From: Bacteroidales bacterium
GTDB taxonomy: Bacteria > Bacteroidota > Bacteroidia > Bacteroidales > UBA932
Direction: 5' to 3'
NCBI GenBank assembly: GCA_017443025.1
Contig: JAFSPG010000006.1
Span: forward strand, 1 to 44,671
Length of the DNA stretch: 44,671 nucleotides
This document shows positions 14,711 to 23,616 of the stretch, piece by piece; the stretch's first letter is position 1; each line of letters begins with the position of its first letter. The notes under the pieces are model-generated. The model was not told the DNA's origin. It did no database searches and was given only the letters and a program-made list of their open reading frames with translations. Both the position numbers and the translations under genes were made by a program.

Positions 14711-14995
14711 ATGGAACTTAAAGAAGCTATTGCGGGTACGCTTGAGTCCGGCGACATAATGGTCCGGATAGGCCCCGCCCAAAGTGGCAGGACCGGCCTT
14801 TCGATTGAACTTGACAGTTCGGTTGCCGCACAGTTCGGGCGGCAGATAAAGGAGCTCATAGCCTCGACGCTTGAAGATTTGGATATTCACAACGCCACTG
14901 TCTCGGCTACCGACAAGGGGGCCCTCGACTGCACAATCAGAGCCCGTGTCACGGCGGCTGCCGTACGCGCTACCGGCAAAGATGTTTGGAAATAG
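14711..14995 (+). CDS. citD: Citrate lyase gamma subunit (acyl carrier protein)
   Basis: A 94-aa acyl carrier protein of citrate lyase. It carries the 2'-(5''-phosphoribosyl)-3'-dephospho-CoA group on the conserved serine, S13 in GTLESGDIMVRIGP. The C-terminal signature DKGALDCTIRARVTAAAVRA is present. The frame is open 12 codons further upstream, but MELKEA matches the normal start. It is the first gene of citD-citE-citF-citX. CitE follows with a strong Shine-Dalgarno sequence overlapping the citD stop. A TAACTTTC box at 14678-14685 could be a weak -7 element. Confidence 0.93.
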   Translation: MELKEAIAGTLESGDIMVRIGPAQSGRTGLSIELDSSVAAQFGRQIKELIASTLEDLDIHNATVSATDKGALDCTIRARVTAAAVRATGKDVWK

Positions 14996-14999
14996 GAGG
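14994..14999 (+). promoter_or_regulatory. Shine-Dalgarno site of citE
   Basis: AGGAGG overlaps the TAG stop of citD (14993-14995) and lies 6 bases before the citE ATG at 15006. Strong Shine-Dalgarno sequences are rare in this phylum. It fixes the citE start despite an open frame reaching back to 14871. Confidence 0.7.
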
Positions 15000-15005
15000 C
15001 CCGAT

Positions 15006-15893
15006 ATGGAAAGACTAAGAAGAACGATGATGTTCGTCCCGGGCAACAATCCCGGAATGATGGCCGACGCCCATATTTACGGCCCCGATTCGATAATGCT
15101 CGACCTCGAAGACTCGGTAACTATGGCCGAGAAGGACGCCGCCCGCATTTTGGTATACAATGCTCTCAAGAGCATTGACTACGGCGGAGTGGAAATGGTG
15201 GTCCGTATCAATCCGCTCAGTACTCCTTACGGAAAGAAGGATGTGGAGGCGGTAGTCAAGGCAGGCGTGGATGTAATCCGCATGCCCAAGACCGAAACCG
15301 CCGAAGAGGTCAAGGAGCTTGAGGCTGAAATCCTGAAGGTCGAAAAGGAAATCGGCTGCGAAGGCCGCACAAAAATCATGGCCGCCATCGAGAGCGCTCT
15401 GGGCGTTGTCAATGCCTATGCCATTGCCACGGCGTCGCCGCGCATGATGGGCATAGCTCTCGGCGCCGAAGACTACAGCGCCAATCTCAAGACGAACCGC
15501 ACCCCCGGCGGAGCTGAGCTTCTCCTCGCCCGCGAGAGCATCGTCGTAGCCGCCCGCGCCGCCGGCATCTGCTGCTTCGATACCGTTTATTCCAACCTCG
15601 ACGATATGGAATCCTTCCGCAAGGAGGTTGAACTTATCAAAACCCTTGGCTTCGACGGAAAATCCATCATCAATCCACGTCAGATAGAGATAGTGAACGA
15701 AGTTTTCACCCCGTCTCCCAAAGAAATCGAGAAGGCGATGAAGATTGTGGCCGCCATCAAAGAGGCCCAGGCAAAGGGCAGCGGAGTCATCTCCGTAAAC
15801 GGCAAGATGGTTGACCGCCCGGTAGTGCTGAGAGCCGAAAGAACCATTGCCCTGGCCGAGGCCGCGGGAGTCTTAAGCAAGGAGGACCTGTAA
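15006..15893 (+). CDS. citE: Citrate lyase beta subunit (citryl-ACP lyase)
   Basis: A 295-aa cytoplasmic TIM-barrel enzyme that splits citryl-ACP into oxaloacetate and acetyl-ACP. It starts MERLRRTMMFVPGNNPGM. The Mg2+-binding and substrate residues of the CitE/HpcH family are visible in DSIMLDLEDSV, MVVRINPL, IMAAIESALGV and LGAEDYSANL. The length matches CitE (about 290-300). The start follows the AGGAGG site, and its stop codon overlaps the citF start by one base (TAATG), so the two are translationally coupled. Confidence 0.95.
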   Translation: MERLRRTMMFVPGNNPGMMADAHIYGPDSIMLDLEDSVTMAEKDAARILVYNALKSIDYGGVEMVVRINPLSTPYGKKDVEAVVKAGVDVIRMPKTETAEEVKELEAEILKVEKEIGCEGRTKIMAAIESALGVVNAYAIATASPRMMGIALGAEDYSANLKTNRTPGGAELLLARESIVVAARAAGICCFDTVYSNLDDMESFRKEVELIKTLGFDGKSIINPRQIEIVNEVFTPSPKEIEKAMKIVAAIKEAQAKGSGVISVNGKMVDRPVVLRAERTIALAEAAGVLSKEDL

Positions 15894-17308
15894 TGAGAAA
15901 TTCGAAAGCAATTACCCTTGAGGAGGCTATACACAAATCCGGACTTAAGGACGGAATGACCATTTCCTTCCATCATCATTTCCGCGGTGGCGACAAAGTG
16001 GTGAACATGGTCGTGGCTAAACTCGCCGAAATGGGCTTCAAGAACCTCCATCTGGCAGCATCCAGCCTTTCTGACGTTCACGCTCCGCTGATTGAGCACA
16101 TCAAGGCGGGAGTTATCACTAAGATATCCACCTCCGGCCTTCGCGGAGAGCTCGCAAATGAGATTTCTCACGGGCTGATGGAAGAGCCTGTCGTATTCCG
16201 CTCCCACGGCGGAAGGGGCAGCGCCATCGCCTCCGGCGAATTGCATATCGACGTTGCCTTCCTCGGGGCTTCTTCGGCCGACGAACTTGGAAACGCCTGC
16301 GGCTATTCGCGGAGTGATAATGCCAAGAGCATCTGCGGCTCGCTGGGTTACGCCCTGCCGGATGCCAGATATGCCGACCACGTCATTGTCATAACCGATG
16401 ATCTGGTAGCCTATCCTAATATGCCGATGTCGATTGCTGCGGCTGATGTGGAGTCCGTCGTAGTGGTAGATTCAGTAGGCGATTCGTCCAAGATATCTGC
16501 CGGCGCCATCCGCGATTCGAAGAATCCGCGCGATATCCTTCTTGCCAAACAGGCTGCCAAAGTTGTGATTAATTCAGGTCTGTTCAACGATGGTTTTTCA
16601 ATCCAGACCGGTACCGGAGGCGCTTCGCTGGCCGTGGTGAAATATATCCGCGAAGAGATGCTCGCAAGGGGAATCAAGGCTTCCTTCGCCCTCGGCGGCA
16701 TCACCGCTCATATGGTCAAACTCCACGAGGAGGGGCTGATTGAGAAGCTTATCGACGTCCAGTCATTCGACAAAGTTGCTGCTGAATCCATCAAGACGGA
16801 TCCTTTCCATCAGGAGGTTTCTTCGGTGGATTATGCCAGCGGGGAGCACAAGGGCTCGGCCGTTCACGCTCTTGACATTGTCATCCTTTCCGCACTGGAG
16901 GTAGATGAAGATTTCAATGTAAACGTGCTCGTGGGCTCCGACGGTATCATTCGCGGAGCTATTGGGGGGCATCAGGATACTGCCGCAGACAGCGCTCTTT
17001 CGATTATCGTCTGCCCGCTTCTTCGCGGACGTATCCCCTGCGTGGTTCCGAAGGTTACGACATTGATTACTCCGGGCAAGTCGGTTGACGTAGTTGTCAC
17101 CGAATATGGTATAGCCGTGAATCCTGCCAGGCCTGAGGTGGCCGAAAGGCTGAGTGCAGCAGGCTTGCCTGTAGTTGATATTCACGCACTGTCGGCCAAG
17201 GCTTCGTCGATTATCGGTACTCCCGACCCGCTTCCTTTCGGAAAGAAGGTGGTCGGCGTGGTGATGAACCGCGACGGCTCGGTGCTCGATAAAATTTTCA
17301 ACATATAA
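15893..17308 (+). CDS. citF: Citrate lyase alpha subunit (citrate:acetyl-ACP transferase)
   Basis: A 471-aa CoA-transferase-like subunit that exchanges acetyl for citrate on the CitD prosthetic group. Recognisable segments are MTISFHHHFRGGD, SGLRGELANEIS, SHGGRGSAIASGE, FSIQTGTGGASLAV, SFALGGITAHMV and VVVTEYGIAVNPARPE. It is slightly shorter at the N-terminus than the E. coli protein (about 510). It overlaps citE by one base. None of the repeats found in the accessory genes citX and citCG is present here or in citD or citE. Confidence 0.95.
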   Translation: MRNSKAITLEEAIHKSGLKDGMTISFHHHFRGGDKVVNMVVAKLAEMGFKNLHLAASSLSDVHAPLIEHIKAGVITKISTSGLRGELANEISHGLMEEPVVFRSHGGRGSAIASGELHIDVAFLGASSADELGNACGYSRSDNAKSICGSLGYALPDARYADHVIVITDDLVAYPNMPMSIAAADVESVVVVDSVGDSSKISAGAIRDSKNPRDILLAKQAAKVVINSGLFNDGFSIQTGTGGASLAVVKYIREEMLARGIKASFALGGITAHMVKLHEEGLIEKLIDVQSFDKVAAESIKTDPFHQEVSSVDYASGEHKGSAVHALDIVILSALEVDEDFNVNVLVGSDGIIRGAIGGHQDTAADSALSIIVCPLLRGRIPCVVPKVTTLITPGKSVDVVVTEYGIAVNPARPEVAERLSAAGLPVVDIHALSAKASSIIGTPDPLPFGKKVVGVVMNRDGSVLDKIFNI

Positions 17309-17328
17309 AGAGAGTCGATAGTCTTTAA

Positions 17329-17367
17329 ATGTCATTTCGACCGAAGCGAAGCGTGGTGGAGAAATCC
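17329..17367. repeat. Dispersed repeat A at the start of citX
   Basis: TGTCATTTCGACCGAAGCGA continues to GTGGTGGAGAAATCC. It is nearly the same as the copy inside citG (22274-22310, opposite strand of the window) apart from short indels in the middle, and related to 4571-4598. The repeat supplies the ATG of citX. Both coding copies read SFRP from the same frame before an indel shifts them. Confidence 0.75.
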
Positions 17368-17997
17368 CTTTCCCTTGAACGTATCCTGCAGAGCCGCGAT
17401 GAACGCGCGCGGCGGCAGCGGGAGCTGCTTGCCGGATATCCCGGCAAGACGCTCATTTGCTTTACCGTCATCCCTCCGGGTGCGGTAAAGCGAAACGACG
17501 GCAGCCTTGCCGTCGCCGCCGCCGGCCGCGCCGCCCTGCACGATGCATTCTCTGCTGCGGACACATCGAGCCCGGAGGTGGCAGTCCGCATAAGACGACA
17601 TTGGCTCCCGAAAAGGGAAGAGGCCCACGAAGTGGGAAGGATCAGCGTTGCGGAGCTGCCATCTCCGGAGCTGTTCGAAGAATCCAGGGATTTGGAGACG
17701 GGGTTCGAGATGTATCTGGTCGTGGATATGCCGGCGGAGGAGGTCAAGCGCATCTGCTGCGATATCGAGGATACACATCCCCTCGGCCGCCTGATGGATA
17801 TCGACGTGATAACGGAGACGCGCCAGGACGGTGCGTTGGCGGAGCCATCCCCGAGGCCCATGACGCGGGCAGAGATCGGGCTGCCGGAGCGGCGCTGCCT
17901 TATATGCGAGCGCCCGGCCAGGGAATGCATCCGGGCCAGGCGCCACACCTCGGACGAACTCCTCGCCCGCTACAACGAAATTCTCCGTGGTGCGTAA
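17329..17997 (+). CDS. citX: Apo-citrate lyase phosphoribosyl-dephospho-CoA transferase, with repeat-derived segments
   Basis: A 222-aa enzyme that attaches the prosthetic group to CitD. CitX features are LERILQSRDERARRQRELL, PPGAVKRN, HPLGRLMDIDVI and the cysteine segment RRCLICERPARECIRARRH. Three parts come from repeats. The ATG and first 13 codons are dispersed repeat A. Residues 85-113 (AVRIRRHWLPKRE to AELPSP) are an 87-nt repeat also found in citG. The last codons (CGT GGT GCG TAA) lie in the end of the 102-bp element. Relatives run from the alanine-rich region almost directly into DLETGFE, so the internal repeat looks like an insertion. A GTG at 17353 or 17356 could be the native start. 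Confidence 0.88.
   Translation: MSFRPKRSVVEKSLSLERILQSRDERARRQRELLAGYPGKTLICFTVIPPGAVKRNDGSLAVAAAGRAALHDAFSAADTSSPEVAVRIRRHWLPKREEAHEVGRISVAELPSPELFEESRDLETGFEMYLVVDMPAEEVKRICCDIEDTHPLGRLMDIDVITETRQDGALAEPSPRPMTRAEIGLPERRCLICERPARECIRARRHTSDELLARYNEILRGA
17581..17667. repeat. 87-nt in-frame repeat B inside citX
   Basis: 87 bases from GCAGTCCGC to CATCTCCG. Aligned by eye without gaps to the minus strand of 21774-21688, the two share 77 of 87 positions. It contains CTCCCGAAAAGGGA and CCCACGAAGTGGG, two small palindromes. It is read as 29 codons in the same frame as in citG, giving WLPKRE, HEVGRI and VAEL in both proteins. Confidence 0.9.
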
Positions 17998-18090
17998 ATA
18001 TTTGTAATTCAGTATTTTAACAAATGTCGGTATCCCAATTTCGGGACACCGACATTTCATATTTATTTTATTATCAATGATTTACGCACC
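17989..18090. repeat. 102-bp palindromic element, copy 2, between citX and icd
   Basis: It starts GGTGCGTAAAT and ends ATTTACGCACC, a perfect 11-bp terminal inverted repeat (13 bp if the flanking GT/AC is counted). The central hairpin at 18025-18054 has arms TGTCGGT and ACCGACA and a loop of about AATTTC; it lies at the same offset (37-66) as in copy 1. The left end gives citX its GGT GCG TAA and the right end gives icd, on the other strand, the same GGT GCG TAA. T-rich sequence follows the hairpin, so it may also act as a bidirectional terminator. Confidence 0.88.
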
Positions 18091-19302
18091 ACAGCCAAGT
18101 CGCTTCTCAAGACGCTCGCGGATAGCCTGCAGGAACTGGAGTGAGGTCAGGCCCTTAGGGGTGATACCTTCTGAAAGATTCACCAGATCCTTGGTCTCGA
18201 GACCCTCGTTAAGGGTATCGAAGCAAGCCTCCTCCAACTGATTTGCGTAATTTACAAGCTCAGGCAGATTGTCGAGTTCTCCCCTCTTGCGGAAAGCACC
18301 ACTCCATGCAAAGATGGTTGCCATAGGGTTGGTGGAAGTCTCCTCGCCCTTGAGATACTTGTAATAGTGACGGGTTACGGTACCGTGGGCGGCTTCGTAC
18401 TCGTATTTTCCGTCGGGAGAAACAAGCACGGAAGTCATCATCGCAAGGGAGCCGAAAGCGGTCGAGACCATATCGCTCATGACGTCGCCGTCGTAGTTCT
18501 TGCAAGCCCAGATGAATCCGCCCTCGCTGCGCATCACGCGGGCAACGGCATCATCAATAAGGGTATAGAAATACTCGATGCCGGCGGCCTCGAAAGCGGC
18601 CTTGTAATTCTCCTCATAAACTTCCTCGAAGATAGCCTTGAACCTGCCGTCGTACTTCTTGGAAATAGTATCCTTGGTGGCGAACCAGAGGTTCTGATTT
18701 ACGTCAAGGGCATATTTAAAGCAGGAGTGGGCGAAGCTGCGGATGGAAGCATCGGTGTTGTGCATACCTTCGATGACTCCGGGGCCTGCGAATTCGTGAA
18801 TCACCATTTCTTCGCGGGCACCAGAAACTCCCTCGAAGACGAGCTTGGCAACGCCGGGCTCGTGTGTCTGGATTTCAACGTCGCGGTACACATCACCGTA
18901 GGCGTGGCGGGCGATGGTGATGGGCTTCTTCCAGAACTTTACTGCAGGATGGATGCTGGGAATGGTGATAGGTGTGCGGAAAACGGTACCGTCGAGCATT
19001 GCGCGGATGGTTCCGTTCGGGCTCTTCCACATCTGGTGGAGATTGTACTCGCTCATACGCTGCACGTTCGGAGTAATGGTGGCACACTTCACGGCAACGC
19101 CGAGGCGCTTCGTAGCATTGGCGGAATCGACGGTTACCTGGTCGGAGGTCTTGTCGCGGTTCTCGAGTCCGAGGTCGTAGTATTCGGTCTTGAGGTCAAC
19201 AAAGGGAAGGATGAGTTCATCCTTGATCATTTTCCAGAGAATCCTGGTCATTTCATCACCGTCCATCTCGACGAGAGGGGTGGTCATCTTGATTTTTTTC
19301 AT
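18082..19302 (-). CDS. icd: Isocitrate dehydrogenase (NADP-dependent, dimeric eukaryote-like type)
   Basis: A 406-aa enzyme that oxidatively decarboxylates isocitrate to 2-oxoglutarate in the cytoplasm. The sequence belongs to the homodimeric type II IDH group shared with eukaryotes: [52 protein letters not shown]-like [13 protein letters not shown] and [11 protein letters not shown]. It starts one base after the aconitase stop and is the last gene of the operon citCG, acn, icd. Its last three codons and stop lie in the terminal repeat of the 102-bp element; the native C-terminus may have been replaced by this insertion. Confidence 0.95.
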
Positions 19303-19303
19303 A

Positions 19304-21550
19304 CTATCTTTTGTTTTTATAATAATTCATGAGGCAGCCGTCGGCGAGAATCTGACGTTCGTCGGCGGTAAGGTTCTGGAAGAAAAGATGGAGCGCCTTG
19401 ACATCTCCGGAGGCAGTGATGACCTTCGCATCGATTTCCTCTTTGCCCGAGAGAATGGCCTGACGGATGCCGGGCACGAAGATGCAGTCGCCGGGAGCAT
19501 AGTCGAAGGATGTTTCAGGGGAGATGGTGAAGGGTACGATTCCCCAGTTGATACAGTTGCTGCGATAGCGTTTGGTGGCATATTCGTAGCAGACATTGGC
19601 GTCGCCGCCGAGGACCTTCTGGCAGGATGCCGCCTGTTCGCGGGCGCTGCCGTCGCCGGGACGGTTGGCAAAGACGCAGGAGCCGAAGGAGGTGTCAGAG
19701 GCTTTTGCCCCGACCTTGGCGAGGGCGGCGGCAACATTTGCCGGTACTTTTCCTTCCCTACGCTCGAGGTCCTGGGCCTGTATACACTTCGACAGGCCTA
19801 CATATTCAGGAACCCTGCGGCTGAGGGCGAATTCGCTGAGCTTTAGGGGATTGGAGCGGTAGCTGGACGTTTCTCCGGAAGGAATCAGCTCGTCGGTTGT
19901 GGTAACGGGGTCGTGAATGACGGCGGCAAGTTCCAGAAGCATGTTCTCTTCCATCGGATACATCTTGGGCCAGTCCTTGATATTGGGGCCGTAGCGGAGT
20001 TCCACAGAAGGGTCGGCCTTGCCGTAGCCATTGTAAACGCGGCTCTTGTAGATGCGACCGTCGAACTCGTAAGGCTTGTGCTCATCTTTGTAATCGATAT
20101 CAGTAGCTGCGGTGATGACTCCGCCGTTTGCTGCCGTTGCGGCAATGCTGCGGGCGTCCATCAGCGCCACCATCGATATCTGGCCCTGACCGGGCTTTGA
20201 ACCCTCGCGGTTAGGGAAGTTGCGGGTGGTATGGCGGATGCTGAGGCCGTTGTTCGAAGGAACGTCGCCGGCACCGAAGCAGGGGCCGCAGAAGGCTGGT
20301 TTGATGACCACTCCGGCTTCGAGAAGTTCCTCTGCAATGTGGTTGCGGGTAGTGGCCAGATACACAGGTGTGCTCTGTGGATAGGCACTCATCGTGAAAT
20401 AATCATTGCCGATGGATTTACCCTTGAGGATGGTAGCTGCCTCTGAAAGGTTGTCGTATGTTCCACCGGAACAACCTGCGATGATTCCCTGGTCGGCAAC
20501 GACCTTGCCATTCTTAATCTTGGAGAGGAGGTCGGGATGGACCTTGTCGCCGAAACGCTTGACGGTATCTTCCTCTATGGCCTTCAGGACTTTCTCGGGA
20601 TTGGCCTGAAGCTCGTGGATGGTTACTGCATTCGAGGGATGGTAAGGCAGGGCTATCATGCTTTCCTGCTTGCCGAGGTCGATGGTAATCATCGCGTCGT
20701 AGTATGCAATCTTTCCGGGCTCGAGCTTCTTGTAAGCCTCGGGGCGGCCGTGCATCTCGAAGTAGTTCTTTACCTCATCATCGGTAATCCAGATGGAGCT
20801 GAGACAGGTCGTTTCGGTGGTCATCACGTCGATGCCGTTACGGAAGTCGATGGGGAGATTTGCCACGCCGGGGCCTGCAAATTCGATGACTTTGTTCTTG
20901 ACGAAGCCGCTTTCGAATACTGCCTTTACGAGGGAGATAGCTACGTCGTGCGGTCCGATTCCCTTGCGGGGCTTGCCTTCGAGCCACACCAGAACGACTT
21001 CAGGGGCATTTATGTCCCAAGTGTTCCTGAGGAGTTGCTTAACGAGTTCGCCGCCGCCTTCGCCTACGCCCATGTTGCCGAGGGAGCCGTAACGGGTGTG
21101 GCTGTCGGAGCCGAGAATCATATTGCCGCAGGCTGTCAGGGCCTCACGGGCATACTGATGGATAACCGCCTGGTTCGCGGGCACATAGATTCCGCCGTAC
21201 TTCTTGGCTGCGGAGAGGCCGAAGACGTGGTCGTCTTCATTGATGGTGCCGCCTACCGCGCACAGGGAATTGTGGCAGTTGGTCATCGCATAGGGCAGGG
21301 GAAAGGTCTCGAGGCCGCTGGCCTGGGCCGTCTGGATGATGCCTACGTAGGTGATGTCGTGCGATACCATGGCATCGAATACGATGTGCATTTTTCCGTC
21401 TTTTCCGGCGCCTTCCCCGGGCTTCTCGTGGGAGCGCAGGATCCCATAGGCGATGGTGTTCTCCCTGGCCTCGTCAGGCGTGAGAGCAGCTTTGTCGGCG
21501 AAGGTTTTGCCGTCAAGCAGATAAATTCCGTGATTTGTTAGTTCTACCAT
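19304..21550 (-). CDS. acn: Aconitate hydratase
   Basis: A 748-aa [4Fe-4S] enzyme that interconverts citrate and isocitrate via cis-aconitate. The cluster cysteines are C360 (GCSGGTYDN), C421 and C424 (CGPCFGAG). Substrate-binding regions include [21 protein letters not shown]-type sequence near the N-terminal third and NFPNREGS. The length and sequence match the Bacteroides-type aconitase rather than AcnB. It sits between the citC-citG fusion (26 bases upstream) and icd (1 base downstream), giving one operon that both matures citrate lyase and oxidises citrate. No citrate synthase gene is present in the window. Confidence 0.94.
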
Positions 21551-21576
21551 TTTTATATGTTTTTCATTTTATATCC

Positions 21577-23616
21577 TTATTGTGGGATGATTCTGTCCAT
21601 AAAAAGCGTCAGGGCCAGCATGTCGGCGGCTCCTCCGGGCGAGATTCCCTCTGCCGCAAATCGCTGGCAAAGTTCCTCTGTTCCTTTCGGAGATGACAGC
21701 TCCGCAACGCCGATCCTCCCCACTTCGTGGGTCCCCTCCCTTTTCGGGAGCCAAAGTCGGCTTTCGCGGACTGCCATCTCCTCAAGCGCAGCCATAGCCT
21801 CCCTCTTGACCTGTAGTGCGCGTTCTTTTCCGGCGCGGCGGATGACGCAGGTGTCGTCGAGGGTGCTCATAATTAGGAGCAGGGTTTTGAGGGCGCTGTG
21901 CTCACGGCGATAGTTCGGGAGCCAGTCGGAGAAGAGTTCGGCGTAGCCGCCGCATGCCATCGCGCGGGCATCCTTAAAATGGGCCGTGGAGCGTATCTCG
22001 CTATGTTCCAATTGTTTACGCATTATTAGTGTGGCGATTTCACCACACCAGAATTGCATAAGTTCTTCTGGATTAGACACTTGCGCTCCACACCCCAAAA
22101 GGCTTGTAGATGCAAATACCGCTATGCCAAGGCTGAAAATGGCTCCGCGGTGCGTATTCACCCCTCCTGTCGCCTCGAGCATCGCCCTTTCCGCCTCCAG
22201 CCCAATCTCAATCAGATTGGCCGCGACATTAATGTCATGTCGAGCGGAGTCGAGACATCTTGATTGTGAGGATAAGATTTCTCCACTCGCTTCGCTCGGT
22301 CGAAATGACAGGAGGGCCAGCATGGCGATTTGGGAGAAGTACGGGCGGATGGCGCGGATGCTCTTTTCCATCAGGGCCAGATCCATATCCTTGTGGGCGC
22401 CGGGGCCGTCGGGGCCGACGAGCCCGGGCTTGCCGGGCGTGTGCAGTTCCTCTTCGAGCGCCCTGCAGGCCAAGTCTGCCAGAAGGTACGGCAGCGTAGT
22501 GGTGGGAACGAGTCGGCTTATGCGGACTGCTGTTCCGGAACAATCAAGAAGTTCCCGGACGGTGGAGGCGGAGACGGGAGCGCCGTCCGCCTCGAGGCGA
22601 GGAATCTCGACGACCTCGATTCCGCGGGCCGGCAGGATTTCCTTCATCATCCTGTTGTATTCAGCCGTGAGTGCGTCAGTGGGCTCGCTGCCGACAAAAC
22701 GAACAGCCGCTCCATAGGAAGGTGCGACGCTACGGCAGAACAAATCCAGGTCGAGCGCCATCTGCGTGGGAGCCGCGTCGGACAGGTCCTTCAAAAAGTA
22801 TGTAGGGAATACCGAGCGGGATATCACATCGGAGCCGCCGTCGCAGACGAAGACATTGGGAATGTCGGCCAGGCCGGCCTGCACCATGGCGAAGCGCTCC
22901 TCGAAGGGAAAGCGCGGCGCTTCTTCGCGTACCACCAGCACATAAAGCCTCTCGCAGCGGCCTGCCGCCTGCTCCGCCAGATACCGATGCCCCAACGTGA
23001 ACGGGTTCGCATTCATCACTATGATGCCGGTAGAGGACAATGGGGCGTCCTCCGGCAGGAGACACCCGGGCCTGTGGTCGCCCGTGACCACCCCCGTAAG
23101 GGCAAGTGTCCCCTCCGGGGACTCACAGGGGGTAGGACAAACTCCCGGCTCGCCGGGAGGGGTCCAACCTTTGGTTGGGAGGAATGGAGCGAAGCGGAAG
23201 GATCCGGGTGCCTCCTGTCGGGGAACGCTAATCCCGGAGACCAGGAGGATGGCTTTGGGGGCGGAGGCGGCGAGGTGGAAGCCGAGGCTCTCGAAAATCT
23301 TGCGGTTTTCGGGCTTGGTGAAGACGCGGAGCGAAGTAAAACCGCGATCCGCGCCCAGCGCAATCAGGCGCGAAATCAAGGGCGTGGCAAGCCCGCGGGC
23401 ACGGGCCTTTTCGGATACTGCCACGCACTTTATGGTGTCGCGCCAGAGCCCGCCGCCAGCAAGGATGGAGCCATCGGAATCGCACGCCGCCAGATACAAA
23501 TCAACTTCCTCAAGGGCCAAACCGTTGTCCTTAAGGAAGCTTTCAACTTTATTCCTGAAGCGCGGAACGCCAAGAGGCAATTCCTCTATTTCAATTCCTT
23601 CAAATGTTTCCATCAT
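21577..23616 (-). CDS. citC: Citrate lyase ligase / triphosphoribosyl-dephospho-CoA synthase fusion (CitC-CitG)
   Basis: A 679-aa bifunctional protein. Residues 1-115 are a GNAT-like domain (ARARGLATPLI). Residues 195-360 are the CitC nucleotidyltransferase (IIVMNANPFTLGHRYL, VSASTVREL), which acetylates the citrate lyase prosthetic group. Residues from about 370 are CitG (KPGLV, GAHKDMDL, GGVNTHRGAIFSLG, SPGGAADMLALTLF), which makes the prosthetic group precursor. Three stretches look like inserted repeats: about 137-189 in the CitC linker (repeat C), 435-461 (repeat A) and 614-643 (repeat B). All keep the frame open. It has its own promoter. Whether the protein still folds and works with these insertions is unknown. 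Confidence 0.88.
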   Translation of the reverse strand: MMETFEGIEIEELPLGVPRFRNKVESFLKDNGLALEEVDLYLAACDSDGSILAGGGLWRDTIKCVAVSEKARARGLATPLISRLIALGADRGFTSLRVFTKPENRKIFESLGFHLAASAPKAILLVSGISVPRQEAPGSFRFAPFLPTKGWTPPGEPGVCPTPCESPEGTLALTGVVTGDHRPGCLLPEDAPLSSTGIIVMNANPFTLGHRYLAEQAAGRCERLYVLVVREEAPRFPFEERFAMVQAGLADIPNVFVCDGGSDVISRSVFPTYFLKDLSDAAPTQMALDLDLFCRSVAPSYGAAVRFVGSEPTDALTAEYNRMMKEILPARGIEVVEIPRLEADGAPVSASTVRELLDCSGTAVRISRLVPTTTLPYLLADLACRALEEELHTPGKPGLVGPDGPGAHKDMDLALMEKSIRAIRPYFSQIAMLALLSFRPSEASGEILSSQSRCLDSARHDINVAANLIEIGLEAERAMLEATGGVNTHRGAIFSLGIAVFASTSLLGCGAQVSNPEELMQFWCGEIATLIMRKQLEHSEIRSTAHFKDARAMACGGYAELFSDWLPNYRREHSALKTLLLIMSTLDDTCVIRRAGKERALQVKREAMAALEEMAVRESRLWLPKREGTHEVGRIGVAELSSPKGTEELCQRFAAEGISPGGAADMLALTLFMDRIIPQ
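21688..21774. repeat. 87-nt in-frame repeat B inside citG
   Basis: Second copy of the 87-nt repeat, read on the minus strand from 21774 (GCAGTCCGC) to 21688 (CATCTCCG). It matches 77 of 87 positions of 17581-17667 with no gaps and is translated in the same frame (AVRESRLWLPKREG, HEVGRIGVAEL). It sits just before the last conserved CitG block (GISPGGAADMLAL). Confidence 0.9.
22233..22310. repeat. Composite repeat A inside citG
   Basis: On the minus strand, TGTCATTTCGACCGAGCGAA to GTGGAGAAATCTT (22310-22274) is a near-identical copy of the repeat at the start of citX. Next to it on the plus strand lies ATGTCATGTCGAGCGGAGTC (from 22233), a related unit in inverted orientation. The pair adds about 30 codons (SFRPSEASGEIL..CLDSARHD) between the PYFSQIAML and GLEAERAML blocks of CitG. 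Confidence 0.75.
23049..23205. repeat. Repeat C cluster in the CitC linker
   Basis: A run of hairpin-forming units: CTCCCGGC-TC-GCCGGGAG (23142-23159), CCAACC-TTT-GGTTGG (23164-23178), and GTCCCCTCCGGGGAC followed by AGGGGGTAG. The last resembles GTCCCCC..GGGGAC followed by AGGGGGTAG beside tRNA-Gly (40515-40557). It encodes a Pro/Gly-rich stretch of about 50 residues between the GNAT and nucleotidyltransferase domains of CitC. Exact ends are uncertain. Confidence 0.55.

Follow-up and report, generated by a model that had tools for sequence, protein, structure and literature searches.

We describe a dispersed DNA unit that lies in frame within several genes of a Bacteroidales genome and consists of a 43-nt head conserved in sequence, capping two arms conserved mainly in their complementarity to each other. 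It was found in a 44,671-nt stretch of contig JAFSPG010000006.1 (the window) from a genome of the Cryptobacteroides genus (G000; 1.66 Mb in 19 contigs). The initial annotation of the window had noted an 87-nt repeat shared by citX and citG, at 17581-17667 on the plus strand and 21774-21688 on the minus strand. We confirmed the match, which shows 89% identity over all 87 columns, in agreement with the 77 of 87 bases first counted, and for which chance is ruled out (E = 1.4e-26 within its own genome). The same reading frame is open in both copies, giving AVRIRRHWLPKREEAHEVGRISVAELPSP in CitX and AVRESRLWLPKREGTHEVGRIGVAELSSP in CitG. Ten base changes separate them and 7 of 29 residues differ; therefore most of the base differences are amino acid-changing, as had been proposed.

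The hairpin unit and its genomic setting

The 87-mer itself did not hold up as the unit. Each copy is instead a palindrome around a 43-nt core (extents were converted by us from locus to window coordinates). The first copy (about 17569-17672, plus strand) lies in frame inside citX, the holo-ACP synthase gene (17329-17997, plus strand; TIGR03124, E = 3.9e-39, matched in two stretches flanking the insert). Its stem has 25 Watson-Crick pairs and one G-U pair, with one mismatch and six gap positions, and its core, placed by a 58-copy alignment at 17599-17641 on the plus strand, comprises two small hairpins. The second copy (21688-21781, minus strand; stem of 22 Watson-Crick pairs and one G-U; core at 21714-21756, minus strand) is in frame in the CitG part of a citC-citG fusion (21577-23616, minus strand; TIGR00124, E = 3.9e-79, together with TIGR03132, E = 2.4e-49, and TIGR03125, E = 4.9e-40, both of which fall below their curated cut-offs). 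A covariance model of the core (R1) matches the two copies at 17591-17649 (65 bits) and, on the minus strand, at 21706-21764 (84 bits). In the surrounding region, 14871-23616, the plus-strand genes citE, citF and citX precede three on the minus strand, namely those for an isocitrate dehydrogenase and an aconitase-like hydratase and the citC-citG fusion. Near the CitC/CitG junction, 22512-22530 (minus strand) matches the left arm of the element over 19 nt (read as AVRISRL; E = 0.067); orthologues carry a segment of similar length there, and the match may be a remnant, a conversion tract or chance.

A nucleotide search of the whole genome with the repeat returned ten matches at E <= 0.001, and the R1 model identified nine full copies in six contigs. 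A tenth, degenerate copy (17.8 bits with R1) adjoins a clpX-like gene, where the core fragment caps a long AT-rich inverted repeat (L010). Seven of the nine full copies are in frame within identified genes, and the hosts are unrelated: citX, citG, trmB (family match PF02390), truB, namZ and the genes for a 4Fe-4S protein and a SpoU methylase. Of the other two, one lies just 5' of queC (L007) and one is in no identified gene (L003). The idea that a single gene conversion copied the segment between citX and citG draws on their being neighbours and is refuted by the nine full copies in six contigs and by the many more in relatives. The frame common to citX and citG, with its WLPKRE string, did not extend to a rule: four of the seven in-gene copies use the WLPKRE frame, whereas three are on the opposite strand of their gene and use other frames. 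The element is thus translated in several frames on both strands, which bears out the view that the peptide itself is not conserved, and we rejected a conserved peptide or domain on the same ground.

Stems were analysed in 121 rows out of 149 R1 matches (about 50 bits or more, with repeats of one place removed), which gave 119 distinct copies; the set includes 40 stretches selected from the R1 matches across the genus. The arms differ from copy to copy, and pairing between them has a median of 28 Watson-Crick pairs; in 97.5% of the 119 copies the stem exceeds the 95th percentile obtained when left arms are paired with the right arms of other copies. Most stems are 20-35 bp long, and five (L019, L033, L034, L035 and L050) run for 29-31 bp without mismatch, wobble or gap. 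The palindromes measure about 94-105 bp in G000, and 93-104 bp in the seven in-gene copies.

Paired changes were apparent on alignment. Among the nine own copies, 14 of 32 pairs have changed on both sides, a count reached in 0 of 500 shuffles. In the alignment of 58 copies, 50 of them chosen by an exact 39-base core pattern, the core is nearly invariant, whereas variation is seen at each of the eight inner stem pairs. Pairing holds in 86% of cells, and covariation scores 0.358, compared with a mean of 0.098 in shuffles. Neither the score nor the share of paired cells was reached in 500 shuffles, and the same was true of the nine own copies. Two of the five covariation measures were not above shuffles in the 58 copies, namely pairs changed on both sides and further pair types (227 and 455 of 500). 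The consensus core is free of stop codons in all six frames, a property shared by 11% of shuffles and kept in 90 of the 119 copies.

With R1, the element was detected at E <= 0.01 in 50 of the 121 genus genomes (at E < 1e-10 in 25 of these), with a maximum of 14 matches in one genome. The genus includes Candidatus Cryptobacteroides avicola, whose locus L045 matches part of G092, another member of the genus, without a difference over 3059 bases. An order-wide draw of 295 genomes yielded it in two (E <= 1e-6), both of the same family as the source. In one-genome-per-species contigs the 39-base core pattern gave 54 matches in 52 stretches, with record titles naming Bacteroidales (one Bacteroidia), some of them Candidatus Cryptobacteroides or Coprenecus. 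Viral contigs held no exact match to a 26-base piece of the core, phages held no match to the citX core, and plasmids matched that core only over 27 nt in Azospirillum; on these grounds carriage by phages or plasmids was rejected. The 27 bases recur exactly at 22 places in 15 Azospirillum records, five of which were listed. On two Azospirillum plasmids (L291 and L292) the match follows a gene and lies beside another hairpin, which may reflect relation or G-rich coincidence.

By a rough gene call, 29 of the 119 copies are within open reading frames and 8 at contig edges; the other 82 are intergenic, with convergent neighbours in 55 cases, tandem in 23 and divergent in 4. Under a stricter rule, 22 copies lie in open reading frames of at least 150 aa, antisense frames included. 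For 14 of the 119 the host gene could be assigned, either from its family or because it aligns with a gene so assigned. Seven of these are in G000; the others are in miaA from three species (as a tandem pair in one of them), in a GH92 gene from two and in truB from another. The tandem pair consists of two copies in frame inside one miaA gene (L037, 777-925).

This setting raises the possibility of a family of structured RNAs or bidirectional terminators, conserved and vertically inherited at fixed sites between convergent genes, with the in-gene copies as side products. The 82 intergenic copies are mostly convergent (55, with 23 tandem and 4 divergent; raw counts with no gene-orientation background), several of them fill the whole gap between two convergent stop codons, species with flank identities of 75-98% have it at the same sites, and the covariation in the 58 copies would also fit. 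Such an origin sits poorly with the position of seven of the nine G000 copies inside genes and with the sharing of arms, in some genomes, by copies at unrelated sites. Just 17 of the 82 intergenic copies have a run of four or more T on either side, against about 10% expected for two sides (5.2% for a random 18-nt window). In the 11 loci searched, Rfam gave no family above threshold for the element; a tRNA and a single hit well short of its gathering score were all that it returned. We therefore regard this explanation as unlikely, while use of the intergenic copies as terminators is possible.

Empty sites and the origin of the arms

Comparison with orthologues showed that the element is an insertion. 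In CitX of the window, 45 residues separate motif F from RDLETG, compared with 7 or 9 in nine aligned orthologues of the genus (counted by hand; nine of the ten other genomes with a match were used, G017 CitX being left out). The net insert is 36-38 residues (108-114 nt), and the palindrome of this copy is 104 nt. AlphaFold, run on an alignment of nine sequences, gave the insert region low confidence (residues 83-113, pLDDT < 50, against 126 of 222 residues at 90 or above) and placed a helix (57-78) before it and a strand (116-122) after it. The element segment of CitG is likewise absent from 13 aligned orthologues, taken from 42 other genomes with a match. The aligned orthologues, then, do not carry the segment in either protein. 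For the 4Fe-4S protein and TruB the net insert size was not scored because orthologue linkers vary strongly in length.

A further pair of filled sites is found in MiaA of G023 and G071, where the element follows the first conserved motif region and precedes EIISADSRQ. The distance between these motifs is 61 codons in filled genes and 25-29 in six aligned empty relatives, a net gain of 32-36 codons (96-108 nt); three more relatives (L235, L243 and L245, with linkers of 32, 48 and 56) were left out of the DNA alignment. The palindrome of the miaA copy L118 is 102 nt, and for L221 the stem routine reaches 138 nt by admitting gaps. The net insert in MiaA approximates the whole palindrome, and therefore the palindrome came with the insertion or arose at it. 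No target-site duplication was recognised; none was seen in the alignment of filled and empty MiaA sites, where the relatives have diverged.

Other in-frame insertions occupy the same permissive sites in other species, in TrmB (L129, L130 and L132) and in the 4Fe-4S protein (L167 and L170), with recurring strings such as GPPSY.AEGG and AGNDASAGND, and these suggest that the genus has more than one family of in-frame elements, probably several. CitG also holds a second, unrelated repeat in frame at 22238-22314, read as SFRPSEASGEIL; the 13 aligned orthologues have neither of its two repeats. This second repeat is found again at 17330-17366, where it overlaps the start of citX and codes for the first CitX residues, and it has 29 matching places in G000 at E <= 0.01, some of which are halves of one copy.

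The arms themselves gave mixed indications of their origin. Copies within a genome have arms in common in 16 of 36 pairs in G000, in all 10 pairs in each of G136 and G013, and in 1 of 11 in G077; no arms were common between copies in G129 or G026 (0 of 28 pairs each), and therefore plain copy-and-paste does not explain those two genomes. Some of the arm-sharing copies in G013 and G136 lie 0.2-4 kb apart, so local duplication contributes to the sharing there.

Alternatively, the arms may derive from target DNA: on insertion of the core, alone or with its inner stem, the flanking sequence would be duplicated in inverted form, giving every copy a palindrome of its own. L005 and L006, for example, are identical over 44 of 44 core positions and over 13 and 12 bases of the inner arms. 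Further out, 8 of the following 17 bases and 10 of the following 18 are different, yet either copy still forms its own stem. In G129, stems of 30-35 bp that are unique and perfect, or almost so, are found in L019, L025, L207 and L211. In TrmB the left outer arm codes for SEDM where the relative G097 has GSDM, which suggests that one outer arm may be native to the host. Against arms of this origin, CitX (108-114 vs 104 nt) and MiaA (96-108 vs 102 nt) have gained roughly the whole palindrome rather than a core and one arm, and arms are common to copies in G136, G013 and partly G000; we consider it rather improbable. Pre-existing palindromes, or one native arm, were rejected as a general rule, being unsupported at MiaA and CitX, but may apply to TrmB and G129. 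We read the data as whole hairpins that spread and whose arms are renewed, with target-made arms also possible.

Over 15 orthologous pairs, 281 arm columns were unchanged, 26 had changed in both arms with pairing kept, 48 in one arm, and 17 in both arms without pairing, 11 of the last supplied by L015/L222 alone. One-arm changes outnumber paired changes, and arm homogenisation is therefore at best incomplete. Symmetric insertions or deletions in both arms had been suspected by eye and were discarded, as the alignment fits ungapped paired substitutions.

Orientation of the core in related genomes

We compared sites shared by relatives (excluding repeated G077 loci and self-pairs of L037 and L029), mostly in metagenome assemblies. 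Fourteen shared sites could be aligned on both flanks, and seven of them show the core inverted: L065/L100, L026/L052, L015/L222, L017/L103, L196/L108, L214/L117 and L221/L118. The other seven have the same orientation (L028/L053, L058/L059/L210, L029/L041, L040/L050, L194/L105, L206/L113 and L046/L056). Pairs aligned on one flank were inverted in four cases (L047/L014, L039/L063, L048/L045 and L060/L197) and not in five (L038/L016, L048/L023, L052/L198, L201/L209 and L202/L205).

The arms are also shared at three of the seven inverted sites. Unchanged arm columns number 25 of 26 in L196/L108 (flanks 91%), 22 of 26 in L214/L117 (a GH92 gene; flanks 98%) and 20 of 25 in L065/L100, with the core inverted in each. 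At the other four the arms are not clearly shared, and independent insertion in the opposite orientation is possible. In miaA and GH92 the frame is open in either orientation of the core, giving ATLTPEEGGDPLAGRV or TLPASGSPPSSGVKV. As represented in these assemblies, then, the core appears to have been turned round between relatives while the flanks, and in three cases the arms, stayed in place.

Two other explanations of this pattern were weighed. Arms near k-mer length might let an assembler walk the loop either way, making the inversions artefacts; the compared sequences are mostly metagenome assemblies and most stems measure 20-35 bp. A hairpin of about 100 nt nevertheless fits within a single usual read, and the final k-mers of common assemblers exceed the arms in length, so we hold this explanation to be quite unlikely. 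Alternatively, the core could be a programmed invertible switch that alters host peptides. Inverted repeats surround it, it is inverted at half of the two-flank sites, and it is in frame in the miaA and GH92 genes; yet the arms of different copies share little that a recombinase could recognise, and most copies lie outside genes, which makes a programmed switch very unlikely.

We think it probable that the element is a non-autonomous mobile palindromic hairpin that works like the Rickettsia palindromic elements (RPE), with flipping of the head and joint change of the arms brought about by template switching. A trans-acting enzyme would recognise the head or the folded hairpin and copy the element to new sites. 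Copies in genes would survive where the frame stays open and the host protein has a flexible loop, and the stop-free head would ease an open frame in any frame or orientation. Copies between convergent genes would persist where they are harmless, and there they may act as two-way transcription terminators. Template switching between the arms during replication could account for head inversion and paired arm changes in one process; published reports on inverted repeats credit such switching with making the arms alike and turning the spacer round (PMC8604942), and with forming and mending perfect stems (PMC8794818).

Mobilisation by a Y1/RAYT transposase was rejected for want of any association between PF01797 and the element. 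PF01797 matched in 58 of 121 genomes and its presence was unrelated to that of the element (odds ratio 1.0, p = 1); for strong carriers of the element the count was 11 of 25, against 47 of 96 others (odds ratio 0.82). The copy-rich genomes G129, G077, G136, G029 and G013 are not among the listed PF01797 carriers.

A variant, which we hold to be doubtful, is that the 43-nt head travels without arms of its own and that template switching, on landing or soon after, writes neighbouring host DNA into a perfect inverted repeat, goes on re-copying the arms from each other and flips the head. If this were true, one insertion could give a host gene two alternative in-frame peptides.

Relation to known elements and implications

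Rickettsia provides the best-known cases of palindromes inserted in frame in conserved genes, and their mode of movement has been uncertain. The likeness to RPE raised in the initial annotation is supported: the element is palindromic, dispersed, in frame in conserved genes as well as intergenic, as RPE are described (PMC2229807), and the in-frame insertions are absent from aligned orthologues in CitX, MiaA and CitG. RPE are given there as about 100-150 bp (105-146 bp), and the seven in-gene copies of G000, at 93-104 bp, fall just below that range. A reference title in PMC2229807 also points to similar elements in Wolbachia. The present element differs from RPE in belonging to another phylum, in its conserved apical 43-nt core, in arms that are largely copy-specific complements, and in the inversion of the core between relatives. 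We compare the two by description rather than by sequence, and for that reason regard the element as one that works like RPE without classing it as one.

Small size, long stem-loops and, in several families, in-frame positions in genes are also features of the MITE-like Correia/NEMIS, ERIC/IRU, RUP and YPAL repeats, as summarised in PMC2229807. As far as such summaries describe them, most MITE-like repeats have family-wide terminal inverted repeats, several with target duplications, whereas the arms here are shared only within some genomes and no duplication was recognised. The short hairpins of the REP/RAYT system are scattered between genes. The present core consensus, in contrast, lacks GTAG and shows no association with Y1 transposase matches.

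Invertons and intragenic inversions also have inverted repeats that flank an invertible segment. Here, by contrast, no arm sequence is common to the copies, the spacer is only 43 nt, and both orientations were found only between assemblies of different species (the seven two-flank sites, three with shared arms). The inverted repeats attributed to template switching resemble the element in their arm homogenisation and spacer inversion, as outlined in PMC8604942; that work and PMC8794818 concern yeast coding DNA and RNA genes, whereas here the process would act on a mobile element family. A full-text search of open-access papers found no published literature on such an element in these bacteria; because it covered open-access papers only, it is weak evidence of novelty. 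The kind of element is already known, and the family and the flipping of its core look new.

These observations have consequences for annotation and for the reading of sequence alignments. Strings such as WLPKREGTHEVGRI in unrelated proteins are derived from the element and are not domains, and covariation by itself is no proof of a functional RNA. Where the core is turned round in relatives, the host genes there carry a different stretch of protein. In this family from gut Bacteroidales, copies are numerous, empty sites and relatives are available for comparison, and the conserved head, the changing complementary arms and the inversion of the head can be told apart. It thus becomes possible to test which feature is recognised, how the stem originates, and whether its perfection requires selection or template switching only.
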